Source: Maritimibacter harenae (GTDB lineage: Bacteria > Pseudomonadota > Alphaproteobacteria > Rhodobacterales > Rhodobacteraceae). From it: a stretch of DNA of 64,000 bases. The stretch is taken from positions 561,073 through 625,072 of the forward strand of contig NZ_WTUX01000011.1 in assembly GCF_009882975.1 (NCBI RefSeq). Direction: 5' to 3'. Shown here piece after piece: positions 36,503-59,253 of the stretch (the stretch's first letter is position 1; every line of letters starts with the position of its first letter). The translations under genes and the position numbers were made by a program. The notes under the pieces are model-generated. The model searched no databases, had not been told where the DNA came from, and saw only the letters and a program-made list of their open reading frames with translations.

Positions 36503-36534
36503 CCATACTGGCCGGACAGGCAACGGAGGTGCGC

Positions 36535-58843: not shown

Positions 58844-58885
58844 CAATCGGCACAAAAAAACCGCCGCCTCGGGACGAGGCGGCGG
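58844..58885 (-). terminator. Intrinsic terminator of the small SOS-linked gene
   Basis: Perfect 11-bp stem CCGCCGCCTCG / CGAGGCGGCGG with a 3-nt loop, followed on the minus strand by seven T. The only minus-strand gene it can serve is the small one at 59018..59140 (or recG beyond). It lies just after the scaffold gene's stop on the other strand. Confidence 0.9.
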
Positions 58886-59017
58886 CAGTTGTGCGGTGTG
58901 GGTCGGACCCGGGGAATGAGGCAGAAACCGGGTTGGGACAGGCGACGTGGGGAACGTCTGGCATGGACTGTGGGACAGGATGCCGGGACCCTTTGACCGC
59001 AGGCAGAAACTCGGGTG

Positions 59018-59140
59018 TCAGATGAAGCTGGGCAGGTAGAGCACCGCGACAAGACCGATCATCAGCGCGGCGGCCCCTGCCATGTCCTGCCAGATGGTGG
59101 CGCGGGACCGGTTCAGCACGTGGCGGATCTCGTTCAGCAT
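59018..59140 (-). CDS. 40-residue single-pass membrane protein under LexA-type boxes
   Basis: The ATG at 59140 has AGGAG at a 6-nt spacing. The protein begins with a basic amphipathic stretch (MLNEIRHVLNRSRATIWQD) and then has one hydrophobic helix of about 19 residues with a short C-terminal end (LPSFI). The upstream 130 bp hold two exact GTTC-N7-GTTC sites and extra half-sites, and an intrinsic terminator follows 130 bp after the stop. Small SOS-induced inner-membrane proteins that halt division (such as Caulobacter SidA) have this size and topology, but I see no sequence evidence of homology. The function is unknown. Confidence 0.68.
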   Translation of the reverse strand: MLNEIRHVLNRSRATIWQDMAGAAALMIGLVAVLYLPSFI

Positions 59141-59161
59141 GGTGGGCTCCTGCTCTGTCGT

Positions 59162-59253
59162 GTTCTCTTCGCGTTCTGTGTTAACCTTTTGTTCTCATAT
59201 CGACGCCCGTTCTGTAAAGAACTTTTTGAGAACATATGAGAACTTTTAGGAAC
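59162..59253. promoter_or_regulatory. Cluster of LexA (SOS) boxes
   Basis: GTTC-N7-GTTC at 59162-59176 (plus strand) and GAAC-N7-GAAC at 59219-59233 (the same motif read on the minus strand) match the alphaproteobacterial LexA consensus exactly. Further half-sites follow: GAAC at 59240 and 59250 in near-helical phase, and GTTC at 59191 and 59209. The region is AT-rich and lies directly before the small gene at 59140. Confidence 0.75.

Follow-up and report, generated by a model that had tools for sequence, protein, structure and literature searches.

The window, a 64,000-nucleotide stretch of Maritimibacter harenae DNA analysed as a whole, contains behind recG a locus that is read from the minus strand and consists of a LexA-type operator, a gene of 40 codons and a structured 3' RNA that ends in an intrinsic terminator. 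The gene lies at 59018..59140 (minus) and was recognized by its ATG frame, a profile search and dN/dS values. Its reading frame runs from 59140 to 59018 and has GGAG six bases 5' of the ATG, in agreement with an earlier note on this DNA, which had described a 40-codon frame with a ribosome binding site. The 40-residue product, MLNEIRHVLNRSRATIWQDMAGAAALMIGLVAVLYLPSFI, has a basic N-terminal half and one predicted transmembrane helix, and its AlphaFold model is a single helix comprising residues 2-39 (mean pLDDT 87). From its sequence, the protein is predicted to be located in a membrane. According to the positive-inside rule, a basic N-terminus is expected to be cytoplasmic, and the microprotein would probably adopt an N-in orientation. 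Four residues (D19, G22, L26 and P37) are invariant in an alignment of 30 rows from 30 genera.

We studied 110 loci, including 30 from the family genome set and the best 80 of 106 relatives from a scan of named genomes, in which the frame was found, for example, in Ruegeria, Phaeobacter and Sulfitobacter. Three pairs of these loci are duplicates (L007/L149, L010/L119 and L016/L164), which leaves 107 distinct ones. All 110 frames start with ATG and are 39-42 codons long, and a Shine-Dalgarno-like 4-mer precedes the frame in 105 of them. Mean entropy at codon positions 1, 2 and 3 was 0.95, 0.51 and 1.48 bits, respectively, in the 78 frames of 40 codons. For the 913 pairs with a usable synonymous distance, the median dN/dS of the frame was 0.33, the 90th percentile 0.56 and the highest value 2.08. 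These in silico data support the view that the 40-codon frame encodes a genuine protein and is under purifying selection. The opposite view, that the frame is untranslated and fortuitous and only the RNA is conserved, could draw on the strong conservation of the RNA described below, but the ATG present in every locus, the low median omega, the codon-position pattern and the narrow range of lengths make it extremely improbable.

The protein could not be assigned to any known family. An NCBIfam scan of 30 members yielded zero family matches, and scans of 30 members against Pfam and PHROGs each gave a match for only one member (HTH_11, E 0.033, in Pfam; E 0.041 in PHROGs), both at chance level; membership in a known family was therefore ruled out for these three collections, within which the protein is indeed undescribed, as the earlier note had supposed. 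With a single sequence as query, 82 of 149 Rhodobacteraceae genera gave a match to the frame. A search with a 30-row profile raised this number to 125 of 149, three of which were found only at E 0.001-0.005, and together with the median dN/dS this is the conservation with Ka/Ks below 1 that had been proposed as a check. When the same profile was run against 289 genomes drawn from the class, five matches were obtained, four of them within Rhodobacteraceae, and no convincing relative outside this family was found among the 289. The fifth match (G298, E 0.0045) covers only 17 residues inside a 290-residue frame and was taken as chance. The genomic neighbourhood is also conserved, and the placement next to recG proposed earlier holds throughout: a recG match lies upstream of the frame in 110 of 110 loci, and a convergent gene of NifU_N type (Pfam name) is located downstream in 98. 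The distance from the end of recG to the ATG is 90-243 bases in 108 loci, and 503 and 1110 bases in the other two.

We further checked the 24 of 149 genomes without a profile match (20 were listed as such and the other four identified by elimination). Two of them, G077 and G125, contain the 3' RNA together with a diverged frame. The remaining 22 were searched with recG, and the neighbourhood was recovered in 17; the search gave only a weaker helicase match in G014, G029, G059 and G095, and none in G122. Twelve of the 17 neighbourhoods hold LexA-type boxes and a small frame (nine passed a filter for start codon and Shine-Dalgarno sequence, and the frames of G090, G101 and G130 were read by eye), and neither boxes nor a small frame were found beside recG in the other five (G008, G017, G054, G056 and G109). 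Overall, 14 of the 24 genomes possess a diverged version, five have no locus beside recG and five could not be judged. The locus is thus present in 139 of 149 genomes, the last 14 being assigned by position, boxes and topology more than by sequence. Because these 14 profile-negative genomes keep a diverged version, the LexA-type operator outlasts recognizable similarity of the protein.

Five genomes showed no or only weak lexA matches (G008, G028, G029, G033 and G059). Among these, G028 has the frame, G033 a diverged version and G008 neither, and two could not be judged; the absence of lexA and the absence of the locus do not appear to line up clearly. G033, which is 74% complete, has no lexA match, yet the box and frame are kept behind recG. 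In both G033 (L327) and G090 (L326), which are AT-rich small genomes, recG is followed by a GAACN7GAAC box and a small frame of hydrophobic character. No trace of the locus was seen behind recG in G008 (L320), an 82% complete genome with weak lexA matches only, and the recA upstream region read in this genome (L249) had no exact box.

Several conserved elements precede the frame on the minus strand. LexA-type box 1, GTTCTCAAAAAGTTC (59219..59233), is directly followed by TTTACA (59213..59218), a -35-like sequence that is conserved adjoining the box and may serve in a promoter. Two GTTC half-sites in 10-bp steps (59240-59243 and 59250-59253, minus strand) lie on the other side of box 1 and recur across the family. 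LexA-type box 2, GAACAAAAGGTTAAC (GAAC-N7-TAAC, 59180..59194, minus), is located at the presumed -10 region or start. A consensus promoter scan gave no sigma-70 match upstream of the frame. The N7 GTTC box corresponding to box 1 was present in 106 of 110 loci, with a different spacing or one different half-site in the other four (L148, L150, L155 and L181), and a triple, GTTC-N6-GTTC-N7-GTTC, was found in 99 of the 110. In 102 of 106 loci, box 2 (defined as GAAC-N7-xAAC) starts 23 bases past the end of box 1. The half-site that closes box 2 reads CAAC in 102 of 106 and GAAC in two, and the family consensus of the box is GAACAAAGGGGCAAC. Restricted to the 107 distinct loci, the counts are 96 triples, 103 N7 boxes and box 2 at +23 in 99 of 103. 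Aligned on the box, the promoter layout of the family reads GTTC-N6-GTTC-N7-GTTC-TTTAC(A), a variable stretch and then ATGAGAACAAA-N4-CAAC. Between box 2 and the ATG there are about 16-67 bases, as derived from the locus distances, and this leader is poorly conserved.

The number of boxes in the window is not above chance: four GTTCN7GTTC-type boxes were counted versus 2.04 expected, and 15 of 100 shuffles reached four. The case for LexA boxes therefore stands or falls on conservation, and it is conservation, not number, that makes these predicted LexA-type boxes significant. Information content in the 30-genus alignment was approximately 1.4-1.6 bits per base in the operator blocks, 0.1-0.3 in their surroundings and about 0.6-1.4 in the coding part; no part of the locus is more strongly conserved than the LexA-type operator. 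The earlier note had reported two exact LexA boxes and several in-phase half-sites upstream of the gene. Both boxes are exact, and box 1 and the half-sites proved to be shared with relatives. The second box, which lies in the leader on the plus strand (59162..59176), is local to this genome, and the other 29 of the 30 genera have no counterpart: within the last 60 bases, exact GAACN7GAAC pairs occur elsewhere only in L020 and L026, where they represent box 2 itself. Two conserved elements, box 2 and the structured 3' RNA, were absent from the note. The triple occurs as one copy in the genome of M. harenae, at this locus, and is present somewhere in 116 of 149 family genomes, where extra copies appear at roughly the rate of the reversed control.

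The same type of box was found at lexA and recA. Of 30 lexA loci taken, four gave no start, and 24 of the 26 upstream regions that were read have N7 pairs of these half-sites; for recA, one of 30 loci gave no start and 21 of 29 upstream regions have such pairs, five of the eight misses being probably due to mislocated starts. Three recA upstream regions (L246, L248 and L249) had no exact N7 pair. The recA box of the M. harenae genome is GAACAAGAGGCGAAC, which box 2 of the locus resembles. On the basis of these sequence comparisons, LexA control of the locus is very likely. We also considered whether a regulator other than LexA, for instance MraZ, recognizes the GTTC repeats. MraZ reads tandem direct repeats in 10-bp phase, and the GTTC copies at the locus follow each other in steps of 10 and 11 bp, with up to four in a row. 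However, the half-site occurs at the same N7 spacing before lexA and recA, box 2 is an exact GAACN7GAAC in nine of the 14 diverged genera, and the stretch upstream of mraZ in M. harenae, the one genome inspected in this respect, has no such GTTC repeats. MraZ was rejected as the reader on this last ground, and we regard control by a regulator other than LexA as very improbable.

Exact N7 boxes are common by chance; the M. harenae genome contains 113, compared with 59 for the reversed control pattern. We inspected 14 of these stretches, chosen mostly for AT-rich spacers, and the boxes were found to precede lexA (two overlapping boxes) and IMS-family, OB-fold and UvrD-like genes. One LexA-type box, GTTCACTTAATGTTC (C50:79159-79173, L091), lies four bases away from an IMS-domain (impB/mucB/samB) frame, which probably encodes a mutagenesis factor of the ImuB kind. 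Another (C50:338926-338940, L092) is located two bases before a frame of ~130 codons that has an OB-fold match only and presumably corresponds to the C-terminal part of an error-prone polymerase standing on its own; the frame on the other side of this box is, we assume, ferredoxin-like. A third box, GTTCCTTAAATGTTC (C59:468579-468593, L099), lies 47 bases before a frame for a UvrD-type helicase. An additional box, GTTCTATTAATGTTC (C51:272106-272120, L094), was detected 122 bases from a frame for a B12-binding protein; corrinoid metabolism would be an unexpected target of the SOS response. A further type of triple, GTTC-N6-GTTCTA-N5-GTTC, also recurs (seen in G013, G024, G112 and G128), and in G013 and G057 lexA has a triple nearby. 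A study of Dinoroseobacter predicted LexA sites before lexA, recA, dprA and other genes, and recG is absent from its main text (PMC6473078).

Downstream of the stop codon, the conservation profile of the 30 genera climbs again. A conserved structured RNA (58854..59006, minus) is encoded here, with CUGCCUG at its 5' end, a closing helix, hairpins with CUGUCCC/UGCCU loops and the terminator. The terminator (58860..58886, minus) has 12 pairs followed by a T run and begins ~130 bases past the stop codon, the stretch between being the conserved folded RNA. That the gene has its own terminator, at 58886-58860 of the minus strand, had been seen correctly before, and the interval then given for the gene omits the conserved RNA. 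RNAalifold applied to a first alignment (63 sequences chosen from 108 trimmed UTRs) recovered the terminator only. Among four subgroup alignments, group 2 showed little beyond the terminator and the others gave the closing helix, which led to a covariance model based on 12 sequences. This model detected the RNA in all 62 loci given to it, 53 of them outside the model set (the weakest match had 22.9 bits and E 0.00055), and in 105 of 149 family genomes under strict filters. Five matches outside the family, with E 0.003-0.008 among 142 genomes, were taken as noise.

In the alignment of 62 rows, which was fitted to the model structure and leans to it, 94.9% of cells were paired, 23 of 29 pairs varied on both sides, and covariation scored 0.351, compared with 0.119 for shuffled and no more than 0.062 for slid alignments; the terminal helix had 97.1% of cells paired in the same model-based manner (62 sequences). 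In the unfitted alignment of 12 rows, both sides varied in just 8 of 29 pairs, and the covariation term (-1.02) was small. Because the 62-row alignment leans to the structure, an arm-swap test was carried out on the closing helix of the 62 RNAs, in which the mean energy was -28.6 kcal/mol with the RNA's own partner arm versus -21.1 kcal/mol with partners from other loci. The mean rank fraction was 0.15, and the own partner was best in only 11 of 62 RNAs because relatives share sequence. The copy in the window folds at z = -5.94. A simple terminator counter scored only 18 of 110 loci (4 in the shuffle control and 0 on the opposite strand). An Rfam scan of the window reached no gathering score: the best match within the RNA had 17.5 bits against a cut-off of 58.8, and up to E 1 the scan listed five matches below threshold, among them ar14 and suhB on the right strand. 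A scan of 15 relatives gave only four Ysr141 matches, none of them at the RNA, and an Rfam identity was ruled out for the window and these 15 loci. The new element is a structured 3' RNA that extends from near the stop codon to the terminator and has no Rfam match. We consider it nearly certain that this RNA is functional.

A short motif, CUG(C/U)C, is enriched in the RNA (3.55 copies per RNA versus 0.84 in shuffled sequences; 62 RNAs with the terminator cut off). The unpaired fraction of these motifs was 0.74, compared with 0.41 for the whole RNA body of the same 62 RNAs. Motifs that are repeated and left open in this way point to a role in base pairing or in the binding of a protein. In a trial search for targets, which covered 63 window frames and one 20-kb stretch around mraZ with guessed starts and unannotated genes, one candidate each was obtained before the window frames at 36534 and 7733, and the best frame of the mraZ stretch ranked eighth; we counted this as no result. 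The first of these frames (window position 36534, plus strand) is preceded by GGACAGGCAACGGAGG, which is complementary to a UGCCUGUCC-like loop of the 3' RNA and is a single unsupported target candidate. Hexamers complementary to the RNA were found in only 0-4 of 26-29 recA and lexA leaders. The folded 3' UTR might instead work in cis only, by shielding the mRNA against decay or by adjusting how it is translated, with no sRNA acting in trans. This reading agrees with the linkage of RNA and frame, since 30 of the 30 best RNA loci carry the frame upstream, and with the target trial, in which no convincing target emerged from the frames and the stretch covered. The repeated and mostly unpaired CUG(C/U)C motifs, however, exceed the needs of a decay block, and we view a purely cis-acting UTR as possible, with considerable doubt. 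Action of the RNA in trans is, in our estimate, an evenly balanced question.

On balance, we favour the interpretation that the sequence encodes a LexA-repressed transcript which specifies both a single-helix membrane protein and a 3' regulatory RNA. This SOS transcript would be ~330 nt long, counted from the presumed start to the terminator. LexA bound to both boxes would shut the promoter, and DNA damage would remove LexA. Translation of the mRNA would then supply a membrane microprotein with N-in orientation and a checkpoint function, most likely directed at septum-synthesis proteins, as for SidA. The 3' part would act as a regulatory RNA, with or without cleavage from the mRNA, whose repeated unpaired CUG(C/U)C motifs may pair with mRNAs or hold a protein. 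By analogy, inhibition of division is a plausible role and the leading one for the protein, at a confidence somewhat short of even.

The product could also be a peptide of the TisB/DinQ type, which is SOS-induced and lowers the membrane potential by insertion into the inner membrane; the structured UTR would then be a built-in brake on the mRNA. A small protein with one predicted helix, SOS-type control and a structured mRNA would all be features shared with DinQ (as described in PMC3567139), but the invariance of D19, G22, L26 and P37 across 30 genera suggests a protein partner, and the leader between box 2 and the ATG is both short and poorly conserved. We therefore find a peptide of this type unlikely. 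Returning to the LexA-repressed transcript with two products, its most elaborate form is a family-specific two-armed checkpoint, in which damage induces one LexA-controlled mRNA that yields a septation-stalling microprotein and, after processing, a 3' sRNA; through its several CUG(C/U)C motifs this sRNA would reprogramme mRNAs or titrate an RNA-binding protein. This full scheme is put forward only tentatively, and we would not expect all of it to hold. If it is true, a single transcript would join microprotein and RNA control of the damage response. A search of the open-licence literature, with most subscription papers outside its range, brought up neither a description of this locus nor a named SOS-induced division inhibitor of Rhodobacterales. 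The locus may thus provide a candidate SOS division inhibitor in most of the Rhodobacteraceae genera examined, with an operator more conserved than the protein, and both a protein and a regulatory RNA may come from this single, undescribed transcript.

Several known systems resemble parts of this locus. SidA of Caulobacter crescentus is an SOS-induced inner-membrane protein of 29 amino acids that inhibits division via FtsW (PMC4211646). The two proteins are comparable in size, with 40 residues in our protein and 29 in SidA, and would also be alike in their topology and SOS-type regulation, both of which are predicted for ours. No family relation emerged from the profile search of 289 class genomes, SidA itself being compared by description alone. 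The locus also differs in its structured 3' RNA; none is mentioned for SidA in the passages of PMC4211646 that deal with it. DinQ of E. coli is an SOS-controlled peptide with a single transmembrane segment and control at the RNA level (PMC3567139). DinQ and TisB belong to type I toxin-antitoxin loci with antisense RNAs, whereas at the locus described here the leader is short and poorly conserved, the 3' RNA is conserved, and the site beside recG is fixed. For a transcript with two products, the E. coli dicBF operon offers a parallel, in which one transcript gives rise to a small protein and an sRNA that both act on cell division (PMC10448788); it is of prophage origin and controlled by DicA, and no sequence relation with our locus is claimed. 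EcpR1 of Rhizobiales is an alphaproteobacterial RNA that is induced by stress, carries a conserved loop and acts on genes of the cell cycle (PMC4414408); in contrast to the RNA at our locus, it is trans-encoded downstream of divK-pleD, belongs to the stringent-response regulon and occurs in another order. As far as these reports describe them, DicB/DicF and EcpR1 may be regarded, by analogy, as precedents for the two halves of the locus.
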